64,000 nt of DNA, taken from positions 4,152,501 to 4,216,500 of the forward strand of contig NZ_OY782507.1 in NCBI RefSeq assembly GCF_963677725.1, in the 5' to 3' direction. The notes under the pieces are model-generated. The model was not told the origin of the DNA, ran no database searches, and saw nothing but the letters and a program-made list of their open reading frames with translations. This document shows, piece by piece, positions 1 through 12,936 of this stretch. The position numbers and the translations under genes are program-made. This DNA is from an uncultured Cohaesibacter sp. GTDB taxonomy: Bacteria; Pseudomonadota; Alphaproteobacteria; Rhizobiales; Cohaesibacteraceae. Positions within the stretch are counted from its first letter, which is position 1. Each line of letters opens with the position of its first letter.

Positions 1-333
1 ATACCAAAGGTCCGGATTGGACGCTTCAAGGCTGACAGCCTTTTGATAATGATCGATGGCCTCGGCATATTTGTCGATCCGCAAGGCAAGGTCGCCGGTT
101 GCCGATTGCAGGACTATATTGTCCGGCTGCTTGTCTGCGGCCTCAATGAGATATTTCAGAGCCTGTTCGGGCTTGTCCTGCGCCAGCAAGGCCTTGGACA
201 GGGTGAGGCGGATATCCACATAACCCATCTTCTCCTTGAGCAATTTACGGCAGATCGTTTCCGCACGGTCGGGCTTTCCCGCTGCGAGATACTTATTTGC
301 CTTCTTGATGCGGTCGGCGGTCTGAGCTTGCAT
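1..333 (-). CDS. TPR-repeat protein, N-terminal part (runs off the window)
   Basis: The reverse strand reads open from an ATG at 333 to the window edge (111 codons, no stop), beginning MQAQTADRIKKANKYLAAGK. The translation shows TPR-like helix pairs, such as the segment containing KPDRAETICRKLL and the later one around KPEQALKYLIEAADKQPDN, then DKYAEAIDHYQKAVSLEASNP. It is the last visible gene of the leftward sugar operon, 130 bp after the SDR gene. In such operons TPR proteins are often glycosyltransferases or sulfotransferases with an N-terminal TPR region, but the catalytic part lies outside the window, so the function is unknown. Confidence 0.75.
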   Translation of the reverse strand, partial: MQAQTADRIKKANKYLAAGKPDRAETICRKLLKEKMGYVDIRLTLSKALLAQDKPEQALKYLIEAADKQPDNIVLQSATGDLALRIDKYAEAIDHYQKAVSLEASNPDLWY

Positions 334-463
334 GGGGACTCTGCCTTCAGTTTCGGTTTGCTGGAAACCGCCGGACCGGTCACGGATCGGCGGGCAAATC
401 AGTTCGGTCGTTAGTTTAGGGCAAAAGGGGCGGTCTTCACAATTCGTCGCCAGTGAAATTGCC

Positions 464-1297
464 CTACCAGACGGTGCGGCCTCCATCTATGGAGAGGGTG
501 GTGCCATTCATATAGCTCGATGCGTCCGAGACCATGAAGGCGACCGCGGCCTTATATTCATCCTTGTCGGCCATCCTGCCCATGGGAATGAGATTGGTCA
601 GGCGCGCAACGAAAGCCTCGTCTTGTCCGTTATAGACGCCACCGGGCGCCAAGGCGTTGGCACGCACGCCCTTGTCGGGCCAATAGGTGGCGAGATAACG
701 GGTAAGGCCGATGAGACCTGCCTTGACGACGGAGTAGGTGACCGGCTTGACGCTTTGGGTGTCTGCGCTTTCGCCTTCGTTGCGATAGATCCTCTGATCG
801 GGCGCGATGATGCCAAGATCGGACGCGATGTTTAGAATGACGCCGCCCTTCTGTTTGGCCATCTGGGTGCCGAAGATTTTTGCGCAGAGCATCGCCCCGG
901 TCAGGCCGACGGCGATATCGTCTTGCCAGATCTGAAGTGGGAAATCCTCAAAGCGCGACCAGTTGGCTCCATCGGTGGATTCCATCTTGGGATTGTTGGC
1001 GGCATTGTTGATGAGAATATCAATGCGGCCAAAGCGCGTCAGAATGGCATCTCTCACCGCGATGAGGGCGTCGGGATCGGTGATGTCCACGCCAATAGAG
1101 AAGGTCTGGCAGCCGTGGATGGCTTCCAGATCTTTGGCTGCATCAGCCGCTCGGACCGCATCAAGGTCGAGCAGGCAAGGGATGCCGCCAAGCTCTGCCA
1201 CAGCCTCGGCATGTTTGCGGCCAAGCAAACCAGCGCCGCCGGTGATGATTGCCACCCGGCCGGTCAGCTCGAAGCTGCTCAATACACTGTTGGTCAT
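464..1297 (-). CDS. SDR-family oxidoreductase (PtmA-like)
   Basis: 277-residue short-chain dehydrogenase/reductase that would use NAD(P)(H) to oxidise or reduce a sugar or sugar-nucleotide hydroxyl. Visible motifs are the Rossmann glycine motif TGGAGLLG at 19-26, NNAA at 97-100, catalytic Ser near 159 and YSVVK with Tyr188 and Lys192. An insert of about 20 residues lies between the Ser and Tyr motifs, as in SDRs of flagellin-glycan loci such as Campylobacter PtmA; that resemblance is from memory. The start ATG has a GAAGGA ribosome-binding site about 8 bases upstream. It follows the second SDR gene by 22 bp in the same operon. The substrate is not deducible. Confidence 0.85.
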   Translation of the reverse strand: MTNSVLSSFELTGRVAIITGGAGLLGRKHAEAVAELGGIPCLLDLDAVRAADAAKDLEAIHGCQTFSIGVDITDPDALIAVRDAILTRFGRIDILINNAANNPKMESTDGANWSRFEDFPLQIWQDDIAVGLTGAMLCAKIFGTQMAKQKGGVILNIASDLGIIAPDQRIYRNEGESADTQSVKPVTYSVVKAGLIGLTRYLATYWPDKGVRANALAPGGVYNGQDEAFVARLTNLIPMGRMADKDEYKAAVAFMVSDASSYMNGTTLSIDGGRTVW

Positions 1298-1319
1298 GGA
1301 CGTCTATCCTTCAATCATG

Positions 1320-2078
1320 TCAGCGGCGGGTCTGGCCGCCATCGAGGGTCCAGATTTGCCCCGTGGCAAAGGGTGCCTGGTCGGATGCCAGCCACAGGGT
1401 CAGATTGGCCACATCGATCGGTGTGCCAAGGCGGGCCAGTGCGACGTCCTTTTGCAGCATCTGATCAACGGCTTCTTTATTCTCATCCATCTTGCGTTGC
1501 CAGACCGAGCCATCAAACAGGATGTTGCCCGGCGCGATGGCGTTGATGCGAATGCCCTCCTTGCCCAAGGGCCGGGCGATGCCTTTGACAAAGGCATTGA
1601 GCGCTGCCTTGGCGGCGGAATAGGTCACCGGCGCGCCGGGAATGGTCTCGTTGCCGCAAATGGAGGAAATGCAGAGGATCGAGCCTGTCTGTCTGGTGAT
1701 CAGGTTCCGACAGCTTTCCACCATGTTTGTCGTGCTCCACAGGTTGGTGGCAAATACCCGTTGCCATTCGGCAGCGGTTTCCTCTCCCGGTGGCACGGAC
1801 GCTCCTGACCCGACATTGCAGACCAGAATATCAAGGCTGCCAAAAAGGTCACGGGCCTTCTCCGCAATACGTTTAGCGTCTGCCGGATCTGAGACATCCC
1901 CCACCACATAGGAACAGCGCTCCGCGCCGAGGTTGTCGCAGGCCTGTTTCAGGGGCGCTTCGTTGCGGCCATTGAGCAGCACGTGGCAGCCTGCCTGATG
2001 GAGGGCACGAGCGATGGCAAGGCCGATGCCTTTTGATGAGCCGGTGATGAGCGCTGACTGGCCGGAAAAATCAGTCAT
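1320..2078 (-). CDS. SDR-family oxidoreductase
   Basis: 252-residue classical SDR with TGSSKGIG at 12-19, the NVGSG loop at 88-92, Ser138/139, and the YSAAK active site with Tyr153 and Lys157. The C-terminus ends GGQTRR, the usual substrate-loop end of 3-oxoacyl-reductase-like SDRs. Its start overlaps the end of the upstream TIM-barrel gene by 8 bp, so the two are translationally coupled. With the next SDR it provides two redox steps in the sugar pathway. A role in making a keto-sugar for the class III aminotransferase is inference. Confidence 0.85.
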   Translation of the reverse strand: MTDFSGQSALITGSSKGIGLAIARALHQAGCHVLLNGRNEAPLKQACDNLGAERCSYVVGDVSDPADAKRIAEKARDLFGSLDILVCNVGSGASVPPGEETAAEWQRVFATNLWSTTNMVESCRNLITRQTGSILCISSICGNETIPGAPVTYSAAKAALNAFVKGIARPLGKEGIRINAIAPGNILFDGSVWQRKMDENKEAVDQMLQKDVALARLGTPIDVANLTLWLASDQAPFATGQIWTLDGGQTRR

Positions 2079-2913
2079 TCTGTCCCCCAGCCTGTTTTAG
2101 GCCGCCTTTGACAAAGGCACGGTAGGTCAGAATTGCACGCAGATGGTCGCCATCAGGGGCGCGAGCGGTTTGCAGGATGATGTCGCCGCGATAGTTGGCT
2201 TCCGCCATGCAGGCGAACAGGGCAGGGAAGTCCGCCGCCCCGATGCCGAGGGGCACGGTGGTGCCTTGATAGAGGCGATCCTTGATATGCAGATTGGTGA
2301 TCCGCTCGCCATATGTGGCCCATTCTTCGCGGACATTATAGCCAATGCCAGCACTGTTGCCGCTGTCATAATTGATGCCGAAGGTCGGGGCGGGCAGTTT
2401 GGCGATGAAGTCTGCCAGTGACTGGGGTGCGAAGTCGCTCTCAAACAGGATGGTGACGCCCAGACTGTCAAACAGCGCCTTGCGGGCGATCAGTTCCTCT
2501 ATCAGACAATCGGTCTGTGTTTGTGTCTGCAGGCTGCCATTGTCAACCAGAGGCACAACAATGTTGCGGATGCCGACTGTGCTTGCGGCTTTGCAGATGG
2601 CTTCGAAATCATTGAGAAGAGCCGTTTTGCTCTGCTCGCTGTCGGCCTTCCAGAAGGGGGCCTGCATGAAGCAATCGCCGGTCAGGTTGGGGATGGTGAG
2701 GTTATGCTTGTCACACAGAGCACGGATCTCGGCCTGTCCCTCAGGCGTCATCAGAGGATTTTTGTAAAGATCGGCCTGATCGAGTGTCCATTCCATGCAG
2801 TGCATGCCGATGCTGTCGGCGAGTGCGATTTCTTTTTGCCAGTGGTCCCATGGGAATGCCTGAATCATGCCATTGACCTGAGGGACGAGGCGCCCTTGAA
2901 TGAAGCCAATCAT
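2071..2913 (-). CDS. Sugar phosphate isomerase/epimerase family TIM-barrel protein
   Basis: 280 residues resembling the xylose isomerase-like / AP endonuclease 2 TIM-barrel family. It starts MIGFIQGRLVPQ, and the middle carries FESDFAP and NYDSGNSAG followed by NLHIKDR. This Glu/Asp/His pattern on successive strands is typical of the divalent-metal site of these epimerases. Its start overlaps the preceding methyltransferase stop by 4 bp and its end overlaps the next SDR gene by 8 bp. It probably isomerises or epimerises a sugar intermediate. A second barrel of the same superfamily is fused to the NeuB-like protein of this operon, which is unusual. Confidence 0.8.
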   Translation of the reverse strand: MIGFIQGRLVPQVNGMIQAFPWDHWQKEIALADSIGMHCMEWTLDQADLYKNPLMTPEGQAEIRALCDKHNLTIPNLTGDCFMQAPFWKADSEQSKTALLNDFEAICKAASTVGIRNIVVPLVDNGSLQTQTQTDCLIEELIARKALFDSLGVTILFESDFAPQSLADFIAKLPAPTFGINYDSGNSAGIGYNVREEWATYGERITNLHIKDRLYQGTTVPLGIGAADFPALFACMAEANYRGDIILQTARAPDGDHLRAILTYRAFVKGGLKQAGGQND

Positions 2914-3884
2914 GTGTCTTTTACCGATTCAATCAGAAGATTTGAGGTTTGGCCACTGGCGACGAGCTTGTCGATATAGGCTGCATTCAGTGTTGCGAGC
3001 TGATCGCTGAGCCAAGTGGTTAGGGCTGGGTCATGGCCGTCGAGCTTGACCTCTGACAGGCCGATTTCGCAGGTGCCTTGCGGGCCGTCATTCATGATCC
3101 AGTGCAGATGATTGAGCAGGTTATAGTCCTGCGTGAAATGCAAGGTCATGGCGTCTTCGGCGAAACCTGCATCCCGGCAGGCCTGCTTTAGGGCCTCGCC
3201 CGAGAAATAGAAGAGATGCTCGGCATGATAATAGAATTGAGTGTAGCTGGGCACTTTCCATGTGGTCAGCAGCGGGTCATAGAGGTTGGGCACCTCGATG
3301 AAGGCGCGACCACCGGGCTTTAAGGCCTGATACACGTCCTTGAGGAACGCCACCGGGTCAGGGGTATGCTCCAGAACCTGAAACGAACAGACAATATCGA
3401 AGGTCTGATCGGCAAAGGGGCTGTCGGAAAAGAAGTCAGAGCTGATTTCAAAGGCGAAGCGGTCGGCCATGAAGGCGCAGCAATCCAGATCAAGCTCGAT
3501 GGCGCAGAGCCGGTTGGCCTTGCCTTCCAGATGAGTGAGAAACTGCCCGGCTGAGGCCCCAAGTTCCAAGAGATCGGTTTGCGGCGTGATGTGGGGCAGG
3601 ATCAGATCGAGGCGTTGCTTTTGAAACCGGCTGTAGATGGTGAACATTTCCTCGGCATGGGTCGAGGTGCCTTCGGCCTTGTGGGAGACGCTCTTGCGAT
3701 ATTCGCTCTCGTAGAAGGCCTTGACGTCAAACGGCTTGCCATCGAGAAAACCAAGGTCGCAGCTGGGGCAATGATAAACGACCCCTTCTCCCCGGCGCAG
3801 TTTGGCGGTCAGGACATGATCGCACTTCGCGCCGCAACGCGGGCAGGGTTTGGACAGGCCGTCGATGGTTTCAAACGCAAGCAT
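2910..3884 (-). CDS. Class I SAM-dependent methyltransferase with N-terminal zinc-ribbon
   Basis: 324 residues from the ATG at 3884; a GTG three bases earlier is possible. The N-terminus has a four-cysteine zinc-ribbon-like element, CPRCGAKC followed by CPSCD (Cys 14, 17, 39 and 42). The SAM-binding motif LLELGASAGQF lies near 105-115, and FDIVCSFQVLEHTPDP marks the post-motif region of Methyltransf_11/23 enzymes. Such zinc-ribbon methyltransferases occur in sugar and O-antigen clusters and methylate sugar carbons or hydroxyls. The gene is coupled to the upstream methyltransferase by stop/start overlap. The target is unknown. Confidence 0.82.
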   Translation of the reverse strand: MLAFETIDGLSKPCPRCGAKCDHVLTAKLRRGEGVVYHCPSCDLGFLDGKPFDVKAFYESEYRKSVSHKAEGTSTHAEEMFTIYSRFQKQRLDLILPHITPQTDLLELGASAGQFLTHLEGKANRLCAIELDLDCCAFMADRFAFEISSDFFSDSPFADQTFDIVCSFQVLEHTPDPVAFLKDVYQALKPGGRAFIEVPNLYDPLLTTWKVPSYTQFYYHAEHLFYFSGEALKQACRDAGFAEDAMTLHFTQDYNLLNHLHWIMNDGPQGTCEIGLSEVKLDGHDPALTTWLSDQLATLNAAYIDKLVASGQTSNLLIESVKDT

Positions 3885-4546
3885 CACGCGCCCTTTGCGG
3901 TCAGAAGACAGACATATTGAGTGCGGGTTATGCCGCAGCCGAGATATTTGGGAATGGAATCTGTCGCCTTGTCGCGCATCATCTCCACAGAGAAACCGTG
4001 CCTTTCTGCTTCTTCATGAATCTGTTGAAAGGTGAATTGATAGATCGGATAGGAATGATCCGCACCGGGCTGGGAATAATGCCCAACCTCGAAGCTGGTG
4101 CCGAGGAAAGTGCGCATCAGGACAAAGCGTTTGGTCGTCTGGCAGATATGGGAAAGGGCGCTTTGCCATTCATCGACATGCTCCAACGTGCCGGACATGA
4201 CCGAAATGTCGGTCTCGCGCGGTCTGTCCCGGCCAATGTCGAGAAGCTCGAAGGGGCGCTTGGGGAAATGCAGGCGGGCAATGTCGAGATAGGTCTGGGA
4301 GATGTCATAGCCCTTATAATCGATCGGGTGTTGACCAAGTGCGCTCAAGCCCACATTGAAGGCCCCGGTGCAGCAACCAATGTCATTGATCAGTCGCGGC
4401 GCGTCGCCCCAGCTGGCTGTCTGCTCATTGATGAAGGTGACAAACTGCTCCACCCAGAAAAGCGGTGGCTGGGAGAGGCGATCAATGCAAAGCTGGAGAT
4501 AGTCGTCATCCTGCTTGGTGTGCCAATCGATGGAGTGTCGGGTCAT
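3884..4546 (-). CDS. Class I SAM-dependent methyltransferase
   Basis: 220 residues starting MTRHSIDWHTKQ. I chose the ATG at 4546 because it overlaps the VOC stop as ATGA, the coupling used throughout this operon; a start at 4597 would force a 55-bp overlap. The SAM motif INDIGCCTGAF lies at 53-63, with acidic YDIS after strand 2 and MSGTLEHVDEW as motif II. The N-terminal 50 residues probably form a cap. It would methylate a sugar or acyl-sugar precursor. Its presence next to a second, unrelated methyltransferase suggests a multiply methylated glycan, which is inference. Confidence 0.8.
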   Translation of the reverse strand: MTRHSIDWHTKQDDDYLQLCIDRLSQPPLFWVEQFVTFINEQTASWGDAPRLINDIGCCTGAFNVGLSALGQHPIDYKGYDISQTYLDIARLHFPKRPFELLDIGRDRPRETDISVMSGTLEHVDEWQSALSHICQTTKRFVLMRTFLGTSFEVGHYSQPGADHSYPIYQFTFQQIHEEAERHGFSVEMMRDKATDSIPKYLGCGITRTQYVCLLTAKGA

Positions 4547-4980
4547 GAAGCGTTCATCTCTACAAGTTCGAGGATGAGGCCCTCCGGGCCCCGACAATAA
4601 ACCAGCTTGGCCAGGCCATCGGGCGATGTCTGGATGTCCGAATGGAGACGGACACCGTGCTCGGTCAGTGTTGCGCAGGTGGCCTCAAGATCCTTGACCG
4701 TGAAGGCCATATGGGTGAGGCCGGTGCTGATCGGGCTTCCTTCCCATGCCGGTTTGTCCGGATGGGAGGTGAAGTGCAACAGTTCCAGCAGATTGCCATC
4801 GGGAGCGGCGAGCTTGGCGGTGGTCACCTTGACGTCGTCCAGCTCCATGATCGCATCGATATGCGGGCCGGCTTCCTCCATGCGTCGGGCCAGCGTGAAG
4901 CCCATGACCTCGCACCAGAAATGCAGGCTGGCATCAAGATCCTGAACCACAAGGCCTGTATGGCGGATGTTGGTGATCAT
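4543..4980 (-). CDS. VOC-family (glyoxalase I-like) metalloprotein
   Basis: 145 residues from the ATG at 4980, which overlaps the aminotransferase stop as ATGA. It contains two beta-alpha-beta-beta-beta modules of the vicinal oxygen chelate fold. Expected metal ligands are visible: His7 (IRHTGL), Glu66 (NLLELLH), His90 (LTHMAF) and Glu138 (LILELVE). Family members include glyoxalase I, methylmalonyl-CoA epimerase and dioxygenases, and the full ligand set suggests an active enzyme rather than a binding protein. Within this operon an isomerase or epimerase on a sugar-linked acyl group is possible, but the reaction cannot be assigned. Confidence 0.82.
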   Translation of the reverse strand: MITNIRHTGLVVQDLDASLHFWCEVMGFTLARRMEEAGPHIDAIMELDDVKVTTAKLAAPDGNLLELLHFTSHPDKPAWEGSPISTGLTHMAFTVKDLEATCATLTEHGVRLHSDIQTSPDGLAKLVYCRGPEGLILELVEMNAS

Positions 4981-6356
4981 GAGTCCGCATCCACTTCTGC
5001 GATGCAATCGCCGAGCACCTGCATGGCTTCGAGAATGGCGTCATCGGGAATGGTCAATGGCGGGCCAAGCTTGATGGACTCCCGTCCCGTATGGACCATC
5101 AGAAGGCCCTTTTGCATGGCCAGTTCACAAACCTTGCTGCCAAAGGCACCGTCTGCTTCACGGGTGCCGGGCTTATAGAGGAAGATCGCAGCCAGCAGAC
5201 CATGGCCGAGGGATGGCCCCATCCGATGGGGGAAGCGGGCTTCCAGCTTGCTCAGCTCAGCAAACAGCAAATCTCCCTTGCGGCGGGATTCCTCAATGAG
5301 GTTTTTGCTCTCGATTTCTTCTAGCACCGCAAGGCCCGCGGCGCAGCAGAGCGGGTTGGCCGAATGGGTGCTGCTCATGTTGCCAATGTCGGGCAAATCC
5401 ATGATGTGCTTGCGGCCAAGGACGCCGGAGATTGGCACTCCGCCGCCCATGCCCTTGCCGACACAGATCAGGTCCGGCTCGACCTCATAATGCTGATAGC
5501 CGAAGGCCTTGCCGCAACGGGCAAAGCCCGCCTGCATTTCATCAAAGGCCAAGAGGATATTGTGCTTGTCGCAGATCGCCTTGATCGCCTGAACATAATC
5601 CTTGGGGTAGAAGACCGCGCCCCAGCCCTGAAAGGTCTCTAACATGAAACCGGCAATGTCGGTGGCCAGATCAATGCCCTTGTCCGCCAGCTCGGCAAGG
5701 CCCTTGTCGAGGATGTCGAGGCCGGTCTTGTCGTTGGTCTCCCAAGGATAAGGGAAGGGGATGTGATGGATGTCCGGGTCGAGGGTGCCGATCCAGCGTT
5801 TCTGGCTCTCGTTCGAGCTGAGCATTTGGGCGCCCAGCGTGCGACCATGCCAATTGTTCTGAATGGTGATGATGCCGCCGCGTTTTTTGCCGACCGACTG
5901 GCCATGCATGCGCATTAGCTTCAGGGCCGCTTCGGTGGCCTCGGTGCCTGCGGACAGCAGGAAGGCTTTTTCGAACGGCTTGCCCGCAAAGGCCAACAGC
6001 TTTTCAAGATAGCGGGCGCGGACTTCATTGCCATAGGCATAGCAGCTGTAAAGCGGCTTCTCCAAGGTCGAAGCGATGGCGCTCGACAGATGCGGGTTGG
6101 AATGACCAACATTGGCAACAAAGATGCAGGAGGTGAAGTCGATCCATTTGTTGCCTGCCGCATCAAAGACATTATAGTCCACCGCCCGATCCCAAACCAA
6201 CGGAAGCTGGCCATGCATGGAGCGGCTTTCGGTCTCATCAAGACGGGCCAGAATGTCGGCGGTGCCGGGGCAGGGAATGGCCGTCTTGATCGTCCGGTGG
6301 GCGGTGTCAACCGGGGCGACCTGTTGTGGGTCGCGGGAGAAAAGTTGGTGCGCCAT
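4977..6356 (-). CDS. Class III PLP-dependent aminotransferase
   Basis: 459 residues from the ATG at 6356; a TTG one codon earlier is less likely. Fold-type I class III signatures are present: SAGTEA at 135-140, NNWHGRT near 167-173, FDEMQAG with the PLP-ring Asp272, and VGKGMGGG with the Schiff-base lysine at Lys301. The family transfers amino groups to omega-amino acids, aldehydes or glutamate-1-semialdehyde. NDP-sugar aminotransferases normally belong to the DegT family instead, so a class III enzyme in a sugar operon is unusual; it may act on an open-chain sugar or build an amino-acid substituent. It is coupled by overlap to the genes on both sides. Confidence 0.85.
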   Translation of the reverse strand: MAHQLFSRDPQQVAPVDTAHRTIKTAIPCPGTADILARLDETESRSMHGQLPLVWDRAVDYNVFDAAGNKWIDFTSCIFVANVGHSNPHLSSAIASTLEKPLYSCYAYGNEVRARYLEKLLAFAGKPFEKAFLLSAGTEATEAALKLMRMHGQSVGKKRGGIITIQNNWHGRTLGAQMLSSNESQKRWIGTLDPDIHHIPFPYPWETNDKTGLDILDKGLAELADKGIDLATDIAGFMLETFQGWGAVFYPKDYVQAIKAICDKHNILLAFDEMQAGFARCGKAFGYQHYEVEPDLICVGKGMGGGVPISGVLGRKHIMDLPDIGNMSSTHSANPLCCAAGLAVLEEIESKNLIEESRRKGDLLFAELSKLEARFPHRMGPSLGHGLLAAIFLYKPGTREADGAFGSKVCELAMQKGLLMVHTGRESIKLGPPLTIPDDAILEAMQVLGDCIAEVDADS

Positions 6357-7090
6357 CAAGGGGCCTCATCAAACAGAAGGTCTAGGAGTTCGGGTTCTTG
6401 ATTGACCCGATATTCGATATGCCGGAAATCGTCTTCGCTATCGACCTCAAGCGAAACCGGCGTGAGGAAGGGCAGCACTTGGTCGCCATTCAACAGCCCG
6501 GTTTGGCGAATGAACTCGGTCGAGAGCACATCAACATAGCCATTGGGGAAATAGGTGGTCGGACAGGCTTGCCGCGCTCTATTGGCGGCATCAAGTGCAG
6601 TGCTGCCGGTGCCGACGCAGGCCAGAATGCCGTCTTCATTGATTTCGAAGGTCTTGTAAGCGGATTCCGACATTTCATGGACCGAACGCAGGGACGTCGC
6701 CGTCGGTGCTGCTTCAAAGGCTGCAATGGCGGCATCAATCAGGGCCGGGTCGCGCATCGGCGTGGTGGGACGGATCTGAACGATGAGGCGCGGCTCGACT
6801 TCATGCTCTTTGAGCCAATCCAGCGCATGGAGGACAAATTCAATATCCTGTGAGCGATCTTGTGAAATCTCAGACGGCCGCAGAAACGGCGCTTCTGCTC
6901 CGAGTTTCAGGGCCAATTGGCGATAGTCCTCAGAGTCTGTCGTCACGATCGTGCGGTCGATGCGGTTAGACTTGAGGCAGGCGGCGATGGACCATTCCAG
7001 CAGACTGTGGCCTGCAAGCGGGCGGATATTCTTGTTTGGCACGCCTTTGGAGCCGCCGCGAGCCGGGATCAGCGCGATGACGTCATTCAT
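6356..7090 (-). CDS. Acylneuraminate cytidylyltransferase family protein (CMP-nonulosonate synthetase-like)
   Basis: 244 residues. The start at MNDVIALIPARGGSK (ATG 7090) overlaps the gmhA stop as ATGA. The nucleotide-binding motif IPARGGSKGVPNKN lies at 8-21, and QIRPTTPMRDP is the downstream signature of NeuA/PseF/LegF proteins. The family converts a 3-deoxy-2-keto acid plus CTP into a CMP-sugar and diphosphate in the cytoplasm. It pairs naturally with the NeuB-like synthase in the same operon. The exact sugar (Neu, Leg, Pse, Kdn or novel) cannot be read from the sequence. Confidence 0.85.
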   Translation of the reverse strand: MNDVIALIPARGGSKGVPNKNIRPLAGHSLLEWSIAACLKSNRIDRTIVTTDSEDYRQLALKLGAEAPFLRPSEISQDRSQDIEFVLHALDWLKEHEVEPRLIVQIRPTTPMRDPALIDAAIAAFEAAPTATSLRSVHEMSESAYKTFEINEDGILACVGTGSTALDAANRARQACPTTYFPNGYVDVLSTEFIRQTGLLNGDQVLPFLTPVSLEVDSEDDFRHIEYRVNQEPELLDLLFDEAP

Positions 7091-7686
7091 GCGTCGCCTC
7101 CCGGCTGGTGGTCCTGTGGGAAGAGGCTGTCTTCGACAATGCCGCAAATGATGTGGCCAAACAGGATATGGCATTCCTGAATCCGGGCGGTGACGTCTGA
7201 GGGCACCTTGATGCACTCGCAAAGCTCAGCCATTTGGCCGCCAGTCGCACCGGTCAGGCCCACGGTATGGATGCCAAGCTTGTTGGCCGTCTTGACCGCT
7301 TGGATGATGTTGGCGCTGTTGCCGCTGGTTGAAATGGCGATGAAGACATCCTGCGGCGTGGCCATTACTTCAAGCTCACGGGCGAAGACATGGTCATAGC
7401 CATAATCATTGGAAATGGCGGTGGCCAGCGACGCATTGGCCCCCAGCACAAGGCCGGGGAGCGGATTGCGGTCACGGCGAAAGCGGCAGACAAACTCTGC
7501 CGCCAGATGCTGGGCATCGGCGAAACTGCCGCCATTGCCCGCCAGCACCACCTTGCCGCTGGCCTTCAGGCTATTGACGCATCTTTGAGACAAATGCGCC
7601 AGTTGTTCCAACAGGGCTTCATCGCCGAGGGCTGCCTTTTTGGCATCAATCGAGGCTTCTATTTCTTGTTTTATTATTGAAAGCAC
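7087..7686 (-). CDS. gmhA: Sedoheptulose-7-phosphate isomerase (SIS domain)
   Basis: 199 residues, the usual length for GmhA, which converts sedoheptulose 7-phosphate to D-glycero-D-manno-heptose 7-phosphate. The phosphate-binding loops GNGGSFADAQH (50-60) and STSGNS (119-124) are present. His60, Glu64, Gln170 and His178 fit the active-site and zinc positions of characterised GmhA. It lies 125 bp downstream of the NeuB-like gene, the largest gap in the operon, so an internal promoter is possible there. With GmhB, the HddA-like kinase and HddC-like transferase it completes an NDP-heptose route. Confidence 0.87.
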   Translation of the reverse strand: MLSIIKQEIEASIDAKKAALGDEALLEQLAHLSQRCVNSLKASGKVVLAGNGGSFADAQHLAAEFVCRFRRDRNPLPGLVLGANASLATAISNDYGYDHVFARELEVMATPQDVFIAISTSGNSANIIQAVKTANKLGIHTVGLTGATGGQMAELCECIKVPSDVTARIQECHILFGHIICGIVEDSLFPQDHQPGGDA

Positions 7687-7811
7687 GGCGAACCCAAATC
7701 TTTCCCAGAATCAAAGGTGATGGGAGCAGTTTAAACCATGGTCCAGCCTTGTGGGTATGCCGGGCCATGGCTTGTTAACGGATTGTCACATCCCTTGTTA
7801 GGCAGCTCGCC

Positions 7812-9704
7812 CTAGAGCTTGCCTTCGAGGCGCTCAAAGGCAATCCAGAAGCCTTCGCCTTCGCCCTTGTGGCCCTGCCAGATTTCCGGGATGAAGGGTG
7901 TGTCCGGGCAGCGCTGTTTAAGGATCGCGCCGAGCCGATCAAAATCGAGATCGCCTTCGCCAATTTGCAAGCCTTCGCCATTCAACCCGCTGGCATCGCC
8001 CAAATGCAGATGAGCAGAGACAGGGGCGATTTTTGCTGCAAAGTCATAAAAGTCGACCCCCAGATGATTGCAAGTCAGCGAGGAATGGGAGATGTCGAAA
8101 CACATCCTGAGATCCAGCGCGTGGCAGTAATGAAGGATATCCTCGATGGTAACAAAGAGATTCTGATAGCGCTGGCCGCCAAAATGCCAAGGGAAGGGGG
8201 CCATGGTTTGCGGGATCAGTTCGACGCCATCCCGGTCGAGCGCCTCAAGGCTTTGGGCAAAGCGCTCGTAATAGCCCTCAATTGCGTCTTTGGGTAGTGG
8301 CGCATCCATGGTGAAGCCGCCAATATTGGCAACAATCATCGGGCGCTTGGTCTTGGGGAAATAGGCCTTCAGGGCGCGGGTGATGTCGATGACGCGTTGG
8401 GTTTCGGCAATGGATTTTTGCCGTTCAGCCTCGTCCGGTGTGGCAAGGTCCATCAGGCGGCTCTCGGCAAAGAGTTCGGGCGCATGGACGACGAAATCAC
8501 ACTCGTAAGGGCCGTCGAGATAGTCTTCGAGTTTCAAATCCATATCCGAATAGGACAGGTGGAATTCATAGAAATCCGGCGTGATGCGTTTGGCAAAGGC
8601 CGTATAATCATGATAGCGCACCGGTACGCCCCATGGACGATCAAAGCGATATTGTCGCGGCTCGGCGGCATGGAGCGCGAGATCGGCAGGATAGAAGAAA
8701 TCCTCAAAGCCCATGTCGCGTTTGGCGGTCTTGCCAACCAGATCCTCAAAATGCTGCGGGGCTAGGCCCTGTCCGGGGCTGCGGATCTTGATGTGGTCGG
8801 CAGTGATGACCGTGCCTTTGGTGATGGGCTGCGCTGCGACGAGGCTTTTGGCGAGATTTTCCCGATTGATCATTTCCCCTTGCGACAGGCTTCTCTCCTT
8901 GCCTGTGCCCAAGGCTTCCTCGACCTGGCGGATGCCATCGACCAATTGGCGGAATTCGGCCTTTTCCAGCGAGGCCGCATGGTCCGGGCCTTCCATCGCC
9001 CGGTCGGCGGTGAAATGGCGCTCGATGATGGCCGCGCCCAGCGCAACTGCGGCAATGGAGACCGCGGTGCCGCGCTCATGGCCGGAATAACCGACAATCG
9101 GGTGGCGTTGACGCAGGCCATCCATCCAGCGCAGATTAATGTCATGGAAAGGCGCCGGATAGGTGCTGTTGCAATGGAGCAAGGCAAAACTGGCCTCGCG
9201 CTCGTTAAGATAGGCAATTGTGGTTTCGACCTCTTCTGTCCGGCTCATGCCGGTGGACAGGATCAGTGGCTTGCCGGTTTTGGCCAGTGCGTCGAGCAGA
9301 GGCAGGTTGGTCAGGTCAGCAGAGGCCACCTTATAGGCCTCAACGTCCATATTCTCAAGCACGGCAAGGCTTGTGACATCCCATGGAGTGCAGAGATAGA
9401 GTATATCTTTGTCGTCGCAATAGGCTTTGAGCTTGCGGTGCTCGTCCTTGCTCAGCTCGAAGCGTTGCAGCAGATCGACGATATATTCCGAGCCGAGATC
9501 TTCACCCGCTTTATCAAGGCTGCGTTGACGATAGACCTGATCGAGATGGCGCATCTGGAATTTGACGCAATCGGCCCCGGCTTCAATCGCCTGATTGATC
9601 AGGTCGATGGCCAGCTCGAAAGAGCCATTGTGATTGTTGCCGATCTCGGCGATGACAAAGCATCGCCCTTCGCCGACAGTGAATGGGCCGATTTTCAGGG
9701 ACAT
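7812..9704 (-). CDS. NeuB-family synthase - SAF domain - TIM-barrel isomerase fusion
   Basis: 630 residues in three parts. Residues 1-280 match the N-acetylneuraminate/legionaminate/pseudaminate synthase barrel (AEIGNNHNG at 19-27, KFQ at 48-50, YSGHE at 206-210, ERHFT at 228-232). Residues about 284-345 form an antifreeze-like SAF domain (LVAAQPITKGTVIT). Residues about 355-630 form a second TIM barrel of the sugar isomerase/AP endonuclease 2 type, with FVVHAPELF, CFDISHS and AHLHLGDASG. Ordinary NeuB proteins are about 330-350 residues and lack the third part. The synthase condenses PEP with an aldose to a 3-deoxy-2-keto acid; the fused barrel may form or modify that aldose. A GGAAG ribosome-binding site precedes the start. 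Confidence 0.87.
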   Translation of the reverse strand: MSLKIGPFTVGEGRCFVIAEIGNNHNGSFELAIDLINQAIEAGADCVKFQMRHLDQVYRQRSLDKAGEDLGSEYIVDLLQRFELSKDEHRKLKAYCDDKDILYLCTPWDVTSLAVLENMDVEAYKVASADLTNLPLLDALAKTGKPLILSTGMSRTEEVETTIAYLNEREASFALLHCNSTYPAPFHDINLRWMDGLRQRHPIVGYSGHERGTAVSIAAVALGAAIIERHFTADRAMEGPDHAASLEKAEFRQLVDGIRQVEEALGTGKERSLSQGEMINRENLAKSLVAAQPITKGTVITADHIKIRSPGQGLAPQHFEDLVGKTAKRDMGFEDFFYPADLALHAAEPRQYRFDRPWGVPVRYHDYTAFAKRITPDFYEFHLSYSDMDLKLEDYLDGPYECDFVVHAPELFAESRLMDLATPDEAERQKSIAETQRVIDITRALKAYFPKTKRPMIVANIGGFTMDAPLPKDAIEGYYERFAQSLEALDRDGVELIPQTMAPFPWHFGGQRYQNLFVTIEDILHYCHALDLRMCFDISHSSLTCNHLGVDFYDFAAKIAPVSAHLHLGDASGLNGEGLQIGEGDLDFDRLGAILKQRCPDTPFIPEIWQGHKGEGEGFWIAFERLEGKL

Positions 9705-9718
9705 CTTGAACTTCCAGA

Positions 9719-11098
9719 CTAATCTTCGAGGGATTGCTTGCCTTCACGGATGGTCCAGGCATTCAGGCCATCTGATTCAAAACGGAAAGGCAGGGTGGTC
9801 AGGCCCATGGCCTGCAAACCGGTCATCAATTTATGTTTCTTGAAGGGCGGTACATAAAAGAGGAAAAAACCACCGCCACCGGCGCCCAAAATCTTGCCGC
9901 CTATGGCGCCCTGATCAAGGGCTGCCTGATAGATGCGGTCCAACTCGTCGGTGCTGATTTTGCCGCTCAGTTGGCGCTTGATCTTCCATAATTCATGCAA
10001 GCTCTGGCCGAATTGCATCAGGCGACCGCGCAGCAGGTCATTGCGCAGTTGATAGGTTAGTTCAACAGAGCGGCTGACAAGGGCGCGGATTTCGGCATTC
10101 AGCATGGTTTTGCGCTGATCATCATGGATTTCGCCGGATTCATGCACGGTGCCGGTGTTGCACAGCACGAGGCTTTCTTCCAGCTCGAACAGGATGTCGT
10201 CGTTGATCCGCAAGGGATTGACCACCGTCTGCTCCATGCCAAATTCCATGAAGTTGAAGCCACCAAAAACGGTTGCATATTGATCCTGCCAGCCGCCGGC
10301 AATGTCCAGATAGAGGCGCTCGGCCTGAAAGGCCAGCTCCGCCAGCTCATGGCGGTCCCAGCGGTCCTGCCGGAACTGGTTAAAGCAACCAAGGATGGCC
10401 GCTGACACAGCCGATGAGCCGCCAAGGCCGGATTTGAGTGGGAAGTCGGAATTGACGTATAATTCAAAGCCAAAGGCAGGCTGAATGGTTCGGAGCAAAG
10501 CAAGGATCAGATTGAAAGGGCCGCTCTTGGTAAAGGCTTCTTGCAGGCTGTTCGCCTTGAGTGTCTCGCCCAGATCGAGGGACGAAATGACGACTTTCAA
10601 ATCCTTGCGCTTTTTGAGGGTGGCGTGGGAGTAGGAGGAGATGGTGGAATTGATCACCGCGCCCTGATGATCAGAGAAGAAATGGGTCAGGTCCGATCCG
10701 CCGCCGCCAAAGCTGACCCGGACGGGTGCGCGGGCGCGGGCATAGACCGGTTCCTCAATCTGGATTGGAACATGCTTTTTGGTGACGACTTGCACCAGCT
10801 TGCCATCCTCATCGAGCACCGGGATAAGGCGGATTTTCTGATCGAGCTGCTTGAGCAGCAATTCACGCGGCGTCTTGAGGTCTGCAGCCATAAAATCGCT
10901 GTTGGCGCAGTGCATGATGGGGTCCTCTAGGGTCATGTCTGCGAGCAGCTTGCGCCGGATATCGCCATCGGTGGCAATCGCAATGACCCGATCCGCATCA
11001 TCGGTCACCAGAATGCAGCCTTCATGATTTTTCTCGATCTTGACCAGCGTTTCCCGAAGCGTGGCATTCTGATGGATCTGAAATTTATCGAGAGGCAC
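9719..11098 (-). CDS. CBS-pair - GHMP kinase fusion (HddA-like heptose-7-phosphate kinase)
   Basis: 459 residues. Residues 1-115 form a CBS pair with TDGDIRR at 43-49, resembling the regulatory modules usually fused to sugar-nucleotide transferases such as PtmE. Residues 120-459 form a GHMP kinase: ARAPVRVSFGGGGSDL at 121-136, the ATP loop GLGGSSA at 224-230, and GAGGGGFFLF near 405. The kinase half resembles HddA, which makes D-glycero-D-manno-heptose 1,7-bisphosphate. The start lies 2 bp after hddC. CBS domains bind adenosyl ligands, so this kinase may be energy- or product-regulated; that is inference. Confidence 0.85.
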   Translation of the reverse strand: MPLDKFQIHQNATLRETLVKIEKNHEGCILVTDDADRVIAIATDGDIRRKLLADMTLEDPIMHCANSDFMAADLKTPRELLLKQLDQKIRLIPVLDEDGKLVQVVTKKHVPIQIEEPVYARARAPVRVSFGGGGSDLTHFFSDHQGAVINSTISSYSHATLKKRKDLKVVISSLDLGETLKANSLQEAFTKSGPFNLILALLRTIQPAFGFELYVNSDFPLKSGLGGSSAVSAAILGCFNQFRQDRWDRHELAELAFQAERLYLDIAGGWQDQYATVFGGFNFMEFGMEQTVVNPLRINDDILFELEESLVLCNTGTVHESGEIHDDQRKTMLNAEIRALVSRSVELTYQLRNDLLRGRLMQFGQSLHELWKIKRQLSGKISTDELDRIYQAALDQGAIGGKILGAGGGGFFLFYVPPFKKHKLMTGLQAMGLTTLPFRFESDGLNAWTIREGKQSLED

Positions 11099-11100
11099 TG

Positions 11101-11808
11101 CTAGATTCCCTGTTCTGCGATCATCGCTTGAAAATACTCATAATCAGCAGGAACGCCAATGTCGATGAAGGCACAATCGATCTTGATGGCTCGGATTGCG
11201 CCGGATTTCACCAGTTTCGGCAGAATCGCAGCCTCAAGCGACAGGAATGCACCGTCCCAATCGGCCAGACAGTGCGCATTGAGGCGATATATGCCTGCAT
11301 TGATCCAGCCCGACTCGCCTTGGTCCCTCTTTTCTTCAAAGGCGGTGATGCGGTCTTGATTGATTTGAACGCGACCATAGCGGTTGGCATTCTCAACATA
11401 AGTGATGGCCATGGCCTGACCGTCTGCCTTGGTCATTGCGTCCATCCCGGCAGGCAGCCATGTGTCTGCGTTTGTGGCGAGAAAGTCTCCTTCAATGGCC
11501 AGCTCTGCCAGGGCGTTGGCCAGAGAGCCACCGGTGCCCAAGGGGTGTGCTTCGGTTATGGTGCGACATTTGCAGTTCTTGAAGGGGCTTTGTGCGAAAT
11601 GGTCATCAAGAAAGGCCTCAATCTGTTCGGCCCGGTGATGCAGGAGGAAGACATAATCGCGGATGCCCGCCTGATGCCAATTGTCGAGCATATAAGCAAG
11701 GAAGGGGCGGCCATGGATCGGCGCCAGCGGTTTGGGGACGTCATGGACAACGGATTTCAGACGGGTGCCAAAGCCTCCGGCCAGCACCAGAAGAGGGATT
11801 TGTGTCAT
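11101..11808 (-). CDS. hddC: Sugar-1-phosphate nucleotidyltransferase (HddC-like)
   Basis: 235 residues. The nucleotidyltransferase signature LAGGFGTRL at 9-17 is followed by VPKPLAPIHGRPF at 24-36, then HPLGTGGSL and NADTW (metal-binding Asp). Length and motifs fit HddC, which activates D-glycero-alpha-D-manno-heptose 1-phosphate with GTP; related enzymes make CDP-glucose or GDP-mannose. The start overlaps the gmhB stop by 4 bp. The adjacent phosphatase, kinase and GmhA isomerase favour the heptose assignment, but base specificity cannot be decided from sequence alone. Confidence 0.8.
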   Translation of the reverse strand: MTQIPLLVLAGGFGTRLKSVVHDVPKPLAPIHGRPFLAYMLDNWHQAGIRDYVFLLHHRAEQIEAFLDDHFAQSPFKNCKCRTITEAHPLGTGGSLANALAELAIEGDFLATNADTWLPAGMDAMTKADGQAMAITYVENANRYGRVQINQDRITAFEEKRDQGESGWINAGIYRLNAHCLADWDGAFLSLEAAILPKLVKSGAIRAIKIDCAFIDIGVPADYEYFQAMIAEQGI

Positions 11809-12392
11809 GGTGTTTCTGTGCCCCGCTCTGTTTTACCGGTGCCAAGGGTAAGGATATGGGTGACGGCATCCTCAAAGCAATCAAAGACCGGGAAGGTGTC
11901 TTCCAGCCCTTGCGCCTTCAGACGGGCGGGCAGTGGGCCGTCGCCGGTATTGACGCCGATGCCTCTGCCGCCTGCGGCTTTGGCGGCAAGCAGATCGGAC
12001 GGGGCGTCGCCGATATAAAGGATCTGGTTGGAAGTGGCGCCATGCCGTTTGGCCATCTCAAGGGCAAAGCGCGGCGAGGGCTTGCGATAGAGAGGCGGTT
12101 CGTCGGGATGTTCGGGTGCAACGCAGATGGCTTCGAAGGGAGCGGTTGGCAAGGCGAGCAGCTCAATCATCCGCTCGTTGCAGGCCTGCGCCTGCTCAAG
12201 GGAAAAATAGCCTCTTCCAACCCCGGACTGGTTCGTATGCAAGAATAGGACATGCCCCGCCGCTAGCAGTCGGGCCATACCGTCGCGCACGCCGGGAAGC
12301 AGCGTCACCGCATCCGGTTCGCACAAATAGGGGATATGCCGGATCAGCGTGCCGTCCCGGTCAAGGAATATCAGATAGGGAGCACCGGACAT
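11805..12392 (-). CDS. gmhB: D-glycero-D-manno-heptose 1,7-bisphosphate 7-phosphatase (HAD)
   Basis: 195 residues from the ATG at 12392 (MSGAPYLIFLDRDGTL); this start aligns the HAD motif I DRDGTL (Asp11, Asp13) close to the N-terminus, as in GmhB/HisB-N proteins. HTNQSGVGRG is motif II, and KPSPRFALEMAK with YIGDAPSDLLAAKAAG gives motifs III and IV. It removes the 7-phosphate from heptose bisphosphate. It is the first gene of the sugar operon, 37 bp after the flgN-like gene. No separate promoter is obvious, so read-through from the flagellar genes is plausible. Confidence 0.85.
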   Translation of the reverse strand: MSGAPYLIFLDRDGTLIRHIPYLCEPDAVTLLPGVRDGMARLLAAGHVLFLHTNQSGVGRGYFSLEQAQACNERMIELLALPTAPFEAICVAPEHPDEPPLYRKPSPRFALEMAKRHGATSNQILYIGDAPSDLLAAKAAGGRGIGVNTGDGPLPARLKAQGLEDTFPVFDCFEDAVTHILTLGTGKTERGTETP

Positions 12393-12429: not shown

Positions 12430-12936
12430 CTATGAGGCGGTGTCGATGGACAGGCCGCGTTGCTGCTTGACTTGCTGGGGCATTTGCCCGGACTGGCCAT
12501 AGGTTTGAGCCTGACCCCGCTTCTGGACCTTCTGATTCAGCCCGTCCACCAGCTCGGCAGAGACTTCACGTGCCGTGGAAATGACCGCCAGATTGGCCTG
12601 CAGGGTCGTTTGGAACATGTGATGGCGGCGGGTCAACTGCTCTGCATCCTGTGGGGCAAGCTGCTTGACGAGGGAGGCGTTGGTGGTGATTGCCTTTTGC
12701 AGAAGCATATACTGGATTGACAGCTGGTTCTTGGCTTCGACCAGCTCCAAGGCTTCGGCCAGTTTGCCTTCGCGCAGCAGATCGGTTTCTTCGACCAACA
12801 CTTCGTCAAGGCTATCCATAATCTGTTCGATGGCGCCGAGCAGGCGCTGCACATCGTCCGGGCTGCCGATCGGGGATTTGGCCAAGGTTGCTGCCTGAGT
12901 TACAGGATTGGGGGCCGTCTGGTTCTGGTCGGACAT
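12430..12936 (-). CDS. FlgN-like flagellar export chaperone
   Basis: 168 residues, mostly long helices: residues about 28-140 form an alpha-helical core (LLGAIEQIMDSLDEVLVEET), followed by a Gln-rich flexible tail. This matches the FlgN family, cytoplasmic chaperones of the hook-filament junction proteins FlgK and FlgL. It begins 1 bp after flgJ, so flgI-flgJ-flgN form one leftward operon. The family is poorly conserved and the call rests on helix pattern, length and position. The sugar operon starts 37 bp downstream. Confidence 0.7.
   Translation of the reverse strand: MSDQNQTAPNPVTQAATLAKSPIGSPDDVQRLLGAIEQIMDSLDEVLVEETDLLREGKLAEALELVEAKNQLSIQYMLLQKAITTNASLVKQLAPQDAEQLTRRHHMFQTTLQANLAVISTAREVSAELVDGLNQKVQKRGQAQTYGQSGQMPQQVKQQRGLSIDTAS

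Follow-up and report, generated by a model that had tools for sequence, protein, structure and literature searches.

A flagellar operon in Cohaesibacter that links heptose-type enzymes to a fused NeuB synthase, with a possible ten-carbon ulosonic acid as product

The window analysed here is a stretch of 64,000 nucleotides (positions 4152501–4216500) from the genome of an uncultured Cohaesibacter sp., which is 4.63 Mb long and assembled in one contig. At its left end, an operon combines homologues of the guanosine diphosphate (GDP)-heptose enzymes with a NeuB-type synthase and a NeuA-like enzyme, which raises the question of whether two sugars are made side by side or whether NeuB is fed with a heptose. 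A first-pass annotation of this DNA had left the choice between the two; several lines of evidence now favour the heptose-fed synthase, the substrate itself resting on inference. A possible explanation, to which we give somewhat less than an even chance, is that the operon is a transferable flagellin-glycosylation block making a single cytidine monophosphate (CMP)-activated 3-deoxy-2-ulosonic acid of ten carbons (C10) from a heptose-derived aldose.

The operon consists of 14 genes on the minus strand, running leftward from position 12392 to past position 1. Reading from flgN, the order is gmhB, hddC, a CBS-hddA fusion, a NeuB-SAF-AP_endonuc_2 fusion, gmhA, a neuA/pseF-like gene, a class III aminotransferase, a VOC protein, two methyltransferases, an AP_endonuc_2 protein, two short-chain dehydrogenases/reductases (SDR1 and SDR2) and a tetratricopeptide repeat (TPR) protein. 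Eight of the 13 internal junctions overlap by 4 or 8 bases, and the other gaps are 2, 14, 125, 22 and 130 bases; the gene starts at 7090 (neuA), 4980 (VOC) and 4546 (methyltransferase 1) were set anew, that at 7090 being picked for its overlap with gmhA. Every gene named in the first-pass annotation is found in this single run, and the gmhB start agrees with an operon start 37 bases past the flgN stop. The families assigned there hold as well, with amendments: the NeuB-like protein is a fusion of 630 residues, the N-terminal CBS domain of the hddA-like kinase had been overlooked, and the AP_endonuc_2 gene, which is sugar-isomerase-like, was missing from the list. Gene content and order are direct observations, whose naming relies on Pfam, NCBIfam equivalog models and PDB matches; structures were predicted with AlphaFold2 (AF2) and compared using Foldseek.

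The fused NeuB (7812–9704, minus strand), encoded by the one NeuB gene of the source genome, joins a phosphoenolpyruvate (PEP)-condensing synthase to a barrel resembling sugar epimerases and isomerases. It matches Pfam NeuB (295.3 bits) and SAF, and scores 356.9 bits on TIGR03569, against a cut-off of 399.65. The pocket residues E25, Q55, K129, Y186, H215 and E234 of NmeNeuB, as given in the accessible part of PMC6795526, are matched by E, Q, K, Y, H and E in 87 or 88 of 88 fused NeuBs (mapped partly by hand), and the pocket for PEP and metal is kept. The active-site change concerns the position of Arg314, which is Ser in 87 of the 88 and Ala in one, while 8 of 11 other NeuBs from the same loci carry Arg. 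In the Neisseria enzyme, this arginine positions the N-acetyl group of N-acetylmannosamine (ManNAc), and the Ala mutant is described as inactive in the same part of that paper (PMC6795526), which also states, citing Joseph 2013, that mannose 6-phosphate is a further substrate of the human enzyme. PF02350, the family of NDP-sugar hydrolysing 2-epimerases, has no match in the source genome or in G407, G798, G799 and G397, and is found in 8 of 13 genomes tested, including G410, a congener with the block. With a single NeuB and no PF02350 match, the source genome is missing the usual ManNAc and legionaminic acid routes. Serine at the N-acetyl-positioning site, together with the lack of a NeuC-type epimerase, makes an ordinary sialic or legionaminic acid unlikely.

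The AF2 model of the fusion (46 sequences) has a predicted local distance difference test score (pLDDT) of 91.8. Its best Foldseek matches are NeuB, PseI and SpsE, followed by 3-deoxy-D-arabino-heptulosonate-7-phosphate (DAHP) and 3-deoxy-D-manno-octulosonate (Kdo)-8-phosphate synthases. It also matches a different fold family, represented by the L-xylulose-5-phosphate 3-epimerase UlaE and a D-tagatose 3-epimerase-type entry, and we place these matches on the second half of the fusion because Pfam names the same superfamily there. Near-invariant residues of the fusion barrel are D537, H567 and E607; those of the stand-alone AP_endonuc_2 protein are E158, D183 and H209. Both triads are compatible with an epimerase-type metal site, and the one in the fusion agrees better with an active metal-dependent sugar epimerase or isomerase than with a phosphatase. 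Compared with what we take to be the epimerase ligands, the fusion barrel and the stand-alone protein each seem one metal ligand short.

Homologues of all four enzymes of the GDP-D-glycero-D-manno-heptose pathway (GmhA, HddA, GmhB, HddC) are present, as had been claimed, and the models of these enzymes match them best, but all four score below their NCBIfam equivalog cut-offs, so that "heptose" is a family-level name here. The gmhB-like HAD phosphatase (11805–12392) matches HAD-IIIA (TIGR01662) at 89.1 bits, above the cut-off, and the GmhB equivalog at 95.3 bits, with a cut-off of 178. For the hddC-like sugar-1-phosphate nucleotidyltransferase (11101–11808), the top model is NF049965 HddC (131.4 bits, cut-off 300). 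The hddA-like kinase (9719–11098) contains Pfam CBS and GHMP_kinases_N/C domains and reaches 245.2 of the 600 bits required by NF049969 HddA; its top PDB entries carry the names of heptose-phosphate kinases or sugar kinases. The gmhA-like phosphoheptose isomerase of the SIS family (7087–7686) scores 172.8 bits on TIGR00441 (cut-off 209.45), and its best PDB matches, 2xbl and 2x3y, are phosphoheptose isomerases. The neuA/pseF-like cytidylyltransferase (6356–7090) belongs to CTP_transf_3, scores 107.5 bits on PseF (cut-off 205.7), and matches CMP-N-acetylneuraminic acid synthetases in the PDB. Unlike the GDP-heptose pathway proper, the window set has its kinase fused to CBS and is tied to NeuB.

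To see how general this tie is, a scan of named genomes with the C-terminal NeuB domain was used. It gave 319 relatives, the best 80 of which (33 Bradyrhizobium-type loci and 47 others) underlie the locus analyses. Neighbours were counted on the strand of the fused NeuB, from −5 to +10 kb, where at least 2.5 kb to the left and 7 kb to the right of NeuB were available (29 of the 47 and 30 of the 33). An hddA-type kinase lies near the fused NeuB in all 29 non-Bradyrhizobium and all 30 Bradyrhizobium-type loci. The kinase carries CBS in 28 of the 29, which also have SDR2 (27), hddC (25), gmhA (24), the stand-alone isomerase (24), SDR1 (21) and gmhB (12). Among 75 loci with at least 1.6 kb upstream of NeuB, the kinase directly precedes NeuB (within 0.9 kb) in 69; the remaining six, in which the longest open reading frames (ORFs) share over 200 bases, were left uncounted. 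Record titles include Betaproteobacteria, Bacteroidetes, Chlorobium, Cyanobium, Nitrospinales and Desulfuromonas, and recurrence of the linkage in so many genomes argues that it is not due to chance. Gene order in relatives thus speaks against the notion that the NeuB/NeuA and heptose sets occupy separate, unlinked loci, since they are linked in most loci examined. In less biased class and phylum samples, the C-terminal domain occurs in 8 of 385 genomes (E 1e-8) and 5 of 398 genomes (E 1e-20), the source genome being counted in both.

There are two exceptions to this linkage. All 30 Bradyrhizobium-type loci keep CBS-hddA, NeuB, the cytidylyltransferase, an extra SDR, the isomerase, SDR1 and SDR2, but gmhA is nearby in none of them and hddC, which can be kilobases off, falls within range on the strand of NeuB in 9. 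An HddC-like nucleotidyltransferase joined to a HAD domain, probably an HddC-GmhB fusion judging from the domains, is seen in the Bradyrhizobium-type loci L018 and L075 (Pfam), and L080, L083, L087 and L093 (by eye). In the second exception, CBS is fused in front of the NeuB-isomerase fusion to give proteins of about 750–785 residues (L020, L021, L023, L025, L027, L110 and L149, from genomes G033, G162, G123, G148, G105 and G465 and an Ensifer plasmid). Pfam detects CBS in the six of seven loci tested, L025 being just under the cut-off; in L020 it was assigned from sequence. Among 21 genomes picked by hand for the kinase, HddC and GmhA tests, HddC reaches 110 bits or more in 15 of the 17 that have the kinase and in none of the 4 that have this CBS-NeuB variant. 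ManC is the enzyme of GDP-mannose. It lies within one gene of CBS-NeuB in 3 of the 7 loci, from two lineages, adjoining it in L020 and L021 and separated from it by neuA in Ensifer (L110), and is found at 250 bits or more anywhere in the stretch in 2 of 79 loci with an HddA kinase. With either HddA/HddC or ManC beside NeuB, the neighbours would by family make GDP-manno-heptose and sometimes GDP-mannose, so that manno-configured precursors recur. The CBS fusion was discarded as proof of a shared kinase-NeuB pathway, as those of HddA, NeuB and a PtmE-like protein are about equally distant relatives of one another; this suggests at most that CBS is a recurring regulator in such pathways.

The smallest set found is in a Desulfuromonas metagenome-assembled genome (MAG; L062), where flgI, flgK, flgL, csrA and fliW come first, followed by hddC, CBS-hddA, the fused NeuB and the cytidylyltransferase; next are two methyltransferases and a Maf-domain protein, then two flagellins with genes like fliD and fliS, most of the flagellar names being assigned from sequence. 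HddC, the kinase, NeuB and the cytidylyltransferase are its sole sugar enzymes, and the Maf-domain protein (PF01973, 97.8 bits) is the sole glycosyltransferase of the island. A GDP-heptose that served merely as an additional donor should call for another glycosyltransferase. Another short set is found in the congener G405 (L118, 11458–15470), at the same flagellar site as in the window and with the same glycosyltransferase family. There, a GmhA-like SIS protein (189.8 bits), a HAD protein resembling KdsC and Kdn-9-phosphatase (about 62–64 bits, under the cut-offs) and a short NeuB, which matches Pfam NeuB and has no SAF match, lie one after another on one strand between flgL and flbT, with a cytidylyltransferase nearby on the other strand. 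This single case reads as Kdo logic with a heptose-type isomerase, and its genes could make up a four-gene pathway to an acid sugar.

The flagellar site of the window operon is likewise observed directly. Its last gene, which encodes the TPR glycosyltransferase-like protein (638 residues), has its 5' part in the window (1–333, minus strand) and runs on to genome position 4150917. To its left follow two flagellins and flbT, with flgL, flgK and flgE (named from sequence) on the other strand; a glycosyltransferase-like gene is thus found past position 1. Pfam recognises TPR repeats in this protein and in a congener copy, and no glycosyltransferase domain in either. The AF2 model (nine sequences of the genus; pLDDT 81.4) matches SPINDLY and O-GlcNAc transferase (OGT) over most of its length, with a best E of 1.3e-14 and TM-scores of about 0.2–0.4. 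Such low TM-scores make a GT-B domain in the C-terminal half no more than probable. The TPR protein of the first-pass annotation is present, longer than could be seen in the window, and shares three traits with FlmG: a TPR N-terminus, adjoining flagellins and coupling to a NeuB pathway.

Within the genus, the C-terminal NeuB domain occurs in 4 of 18 genomes, the source genome included; the nearest relative's locus, L030 of a Cohaesibacter MAG, shows 86% identity over this domain. The site was surveyed as the stretch from flgI in 16 of 17 congeners, G408 having no flgI match. G407 and G410 contain the block and the TPR gene, as does G404 up to the end of its stretch. Seven congeners (G400, G402, G403, G406, G411, G413 and G416) have an empty site, with short ORFs alone between flgN and the flagellins, and six (G401, G405, G409, G412, G414 and G415) have a related TPR glycosyltransferase without the block. 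The block is thus an insertion at the flgN-flagellin site. A NeuB-family gene is found in 7 of 9 genomes with a TPR glycosyltransferase at the site (the source counted, and the NeuB of G415 being a contig-end fragment) versus 2 of 7 without (G404 and G408 excluded), a trend in the expected direction but small. That flagellin is the likely acceptor, as first suggested, is well supported by gene context: the TPR gene and two flagellins adjoin, the block is inserted at this site, and the minimal Desulfuromonas block sits amid flagellar genes.

In the proposed mechanism, GmhA, HddA, GmhB and HddC would provide an activated manno-heptose. The fused NeuB would then condense the released or phosphorylated heptose with PEP to give a ten-carbon homologue of the acid Kdn. 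The C-terminal epimerase/isomerase-like barrel of the fusion would prepare the aldose, and the NeuA-like enzyme would attach CMP. Tailoring could be carried out by the aminotransferase, the SDRs, the stand-alone isomerase, the VOC protein and the methyltransferases, before the TPR glycosyltransferase places the sugar on the two flagellins. We infer every enzymatic step here, as well as the carbon number, the donor of the glycosyltransferase and the route by which GDP- or phosphate-bound heptose would reach NeuB. The broader claim is held still more tentatively: that fused NeuBs condense PEP with D-glycero-D-manno-heptose, or its 7-phosphate, to a C10 3-deoxy-2-ulosonic acid, that this acid is CMP-activated and attached to flagellin in two phyla while elsewhere it goes to different surface glycans, and that the gene set responsible is widespread and moves horizontally.

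Several observations weigh against a single heptose-derived acid. No evident GDP-sugar hydrolase, which would free heptose from GDP-heptose, is found among the block genes, and the four heptose proteins are family-level matches. In the Bradyrhizobium genomes G385 and G386, which carry the kinase and, close to the cluster, a gene fusing HddC and HAD, there is no GmhA (TIGR00441, 1e-15); in G388 and G389 the sole SIS protein is divergent (about 87–88 bits). The CBS-NeuB variant comes without an HddA-type kinase in all 4 genomes tested. The TPR glycosyltransferase could, judging from its SPINDLY-like model, use GDP-heptose, as SPINDLY binds GDP-fucose. Nor is the loss of Arg314 in itself proof that the substrate lacks an acetamido group. 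Selection of the best 80 of 319 loci by similarity biases the linkage counts towards the window's type. Within the genus, G401 and G409 have the TPR glycosyltransferase without a NeuB, and G400 and G416 have a NeuB without such a gene at the site. It is the Bradyrhizobium genomes without GmhA, the missing hydrolase, the family-level matches and the SPINDLY-like model that keep our confidence in the single acid below even.

The main rival, unlikely in our estimate, is that two donors are made: GDP-heptose by the quartet, and a CMP-acid of ordinary size, such as a Kdn-type C9 acid, by NeuB and NeuA, with both placed on flagellin or one on lipopolysaccharide. The best matches of the GmhA, HddA and HddC homologues to GDP-heptose or phosphoheptose enzymes agree with this, as do the SPINDLY/OGT-like model and the occurrence of CBS-NeuB without HddA. 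A second donor fits poorly, however, with the one glycosyltransferase-like gene each in the window operon and the Desulfuromonas island, and with a kinase that stays beside NeuB where gmhA, gmhB or hddC is missing nearby. Less likely again is that the quartet homologues act on a sugar other than heptose, NeuB making a C9 acid from that hexose. Scores below the equivalog cut-offs, the kinase without GmhA in G385 and G386, and ManC near CBS-NeuB, which points to mannose, would suit such a substrate; yet the known structures nearest to GmhA are phosphoheptose isomerases, and the kinase matches heptose-phosphate kinases best, at about 200 bits versus 81 for the next named family.

A very improbable alternative is an animal-like route, in which NeuB converts ManNAc-6-phosphate to N-acetylneuraminic acid (Neu5Ac)-9-phosphate and the C-terminal domain is the phosphatase. 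This was proposed for the nonulosonic acid synthase of Leptospira interrogans (YP_002104 / NP_711794) in 2012, whose C-terminal endonuclease-homologous domain was read as making it a synthase plus phosphatase (PMC3438082, in its accessible part). Against this stand the match of the C-terminal fold to sugar 3-epimerases, the replacement of the N-acetyl-positioning Arg by Ser, and the absence of PF02350 from the source genome and of any recognised ManNAc-forming gene from the block. As in the window, the Leptospira protein is of NeuB type with an endonuclease-like C-terminal domain, and its cluster is described as having aminotransferase and CMP-synthetase genes. The two probably belong to the same fusion family, compared by description only. 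Unlike the heptose-fed reading of the window, the Leptospira enzyme was assigned to the Neu5Ac route, and the word "heptose" is absent from the text of PMC3438082.

Other known systems share parts of this logic. Caulobacter FlmG combines a TPR N-terminus with a GT-B C-terminus and is involved in flagellin O-glycosylation (PMC7591256, as far as its accessible part goes); by description, the window resembles it in the TPR N-terminus, the NeuB pathway and the likely flagellin targets, and the C-terminal half of its TPR protein is probably a GT-B domain too. The FlmG system uses pseudaminic acid, however, and no pseudaminic dehydratase or acetyltransferase is recognised in the window block. The legionaminic acid route of Campylobacter, which employs a GDP-sugar (PMC3438082, accessible part), likewise has an activated precursor, a NeuB synthase and a CMP-synthetase, and CBS is also found on a PtmE-like protein (named from sequence) in L019. 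It differs in that the window block has no recognised dehydratase, acetyltransferase or hydrolysing epimerase, and has instead a heptose-type kinase and a SIS isomerase. The Kdo route proceeds through KdsD, KdsA, KdsC and KdsB, and a related route leads to Kdn-9-phosphate. Isomerase, PEP condensation and cytidylyl transfer are common to these and the window, which differs in the larger or different aldose proposed and in that, the GmhB-like HAD aside, no KdsC-like gene is present in the block. Bradyrhizose, a C10 sugar of photosynthetic Bradyrhizobium, came into question because Bradyrhizobium accounts for many of the relatives, and was dropped as a candidate product: the accessible part of PMC4743980 suggests an 11-gene O-antigen cluster with a dTDP-glucose dehydratase and names no NeuB for it, a judgement made from the description.

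What is already known is thus glycosylation of the FlmG type and NeuB with an endonuclease-like domain, and we regard the block as a sialic-acid-type pathway for flagellin or surface sugars with a different precursor supply. Among the openly licensed PMC papers listed, none ties a GDP-heptose set to NeuB in one pathway in its title or abstract opening; none of four names for C10 ulosonic acids occurs in openly licensed PMC full text, and nothing on Leptospira, NeuB and AP endonuclease together in the openly licensed PMC literature. The accessible parts of an SpsE paper (PMC7439481) and a Shewanella flagellin paper (PMC3765264) hold no match to the window gene set. NeuB-type surface acids of bacteria are known with nine carbons, and a single genome scan gave 319 relatives of the C-terminal domain of the fused synthase; should heptose be the substrate, sialic-acid-like sugars would include a new size class that has gone unnoticed. 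Otherwise, the locus is still a compact and testable case: the minimal Desulfuromonas set consists of four sugar genes, Maf and flagellins, and the genus offers one flagellar site that is empty, filled by the block or, in a single congener, bordered by a smaller set with NeuB.

The genes downstream of the cytidylyltransferase, all on the minus strand, would serve in tailoring. They encode a class III aminotransferase (4977–6359; Aminotran_3, 294 bits; nearest PDB entries γ-aminobutyric acid transaminases), a VOC protein of glyoxalase fold (4543–4980; Pfam Glyoxalase, 64.3 bits), two S-adenosylmethionine-dependent methyltransferases (3884–4546, Methyltransf_11, 29 bits, cut-off 21.2; and 2910–3887, Methyltransf_23, 75.2 bits), the stand-alone AP_endonuc_2 protein, which resembles sugar epimerases and isomerases (2071–2913; PF01261, 73.2 bits; a weak PDB match to UlaE, E 1.6e-4), SDR1 (1320–2078; adh_short_C2, 185.1 bits) and SDR2 (464–1297; adh_short_C2, 132.4 bits). 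Around the cytidylyltransferase, the 29 loci vary: the class III aminotransferase always comes with VOC (9 of 9), nine loci carry a class IV aminotransferase, and still others an SDR or different genes. The variation suggests one core that is tailored in alternative ways, by amination or reduction.

Across the 94 scanned stretches, flagellar genes are seen in Desulfuromonas L062 and in L030 of the window's genus and in no others, so that the sugar is mostly not tied to flagella among these loci. Elsewhere, neighbours include an ABC exporter (named from sequence) and LIC12162-family transferases. The latter follow SDR2 in several loci, for example L054 (14237–16012; TIGR04331, 522.7 bits) and, recognised by clustering, L045 (15724–17502) and similar ones, and may be the transferases for this sugar in O-antigens. 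Phages and plasmids were dropped as carriers of the block: no match was found in phages, and one plasmid record, from Ensifer canadensis, carries the CBS-NeuB variant.

The flgN-like ORF upstream of the block (12430–12936, minus strand) is named by position, having no Pfam match at E<=0.001; a homologue follows flgI in all 18 stretches compared (16 congeners and two genomes of the same family). The block-carrying congener G410 has two more NeuBs and its PF02350 gene elsewhere in the genome. In L120, a second TPR protein with a clear Glyco_transf_41 domain (4554–6710; 310.8 bits) and a polysaccharide pyruvyl transferase (7038–8120) lie between the TPR glycosyltransferase and the flagellins, and L127 and L129 have ORFs of like size, by size alone, at the place of the second TPR protein. 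Twelve congeners (G400–G403, G405, G406, G409 and G411–G415) contain a second, more distant flgI match with 47–57% identity, which suggests two flagellar systems in these genomes.

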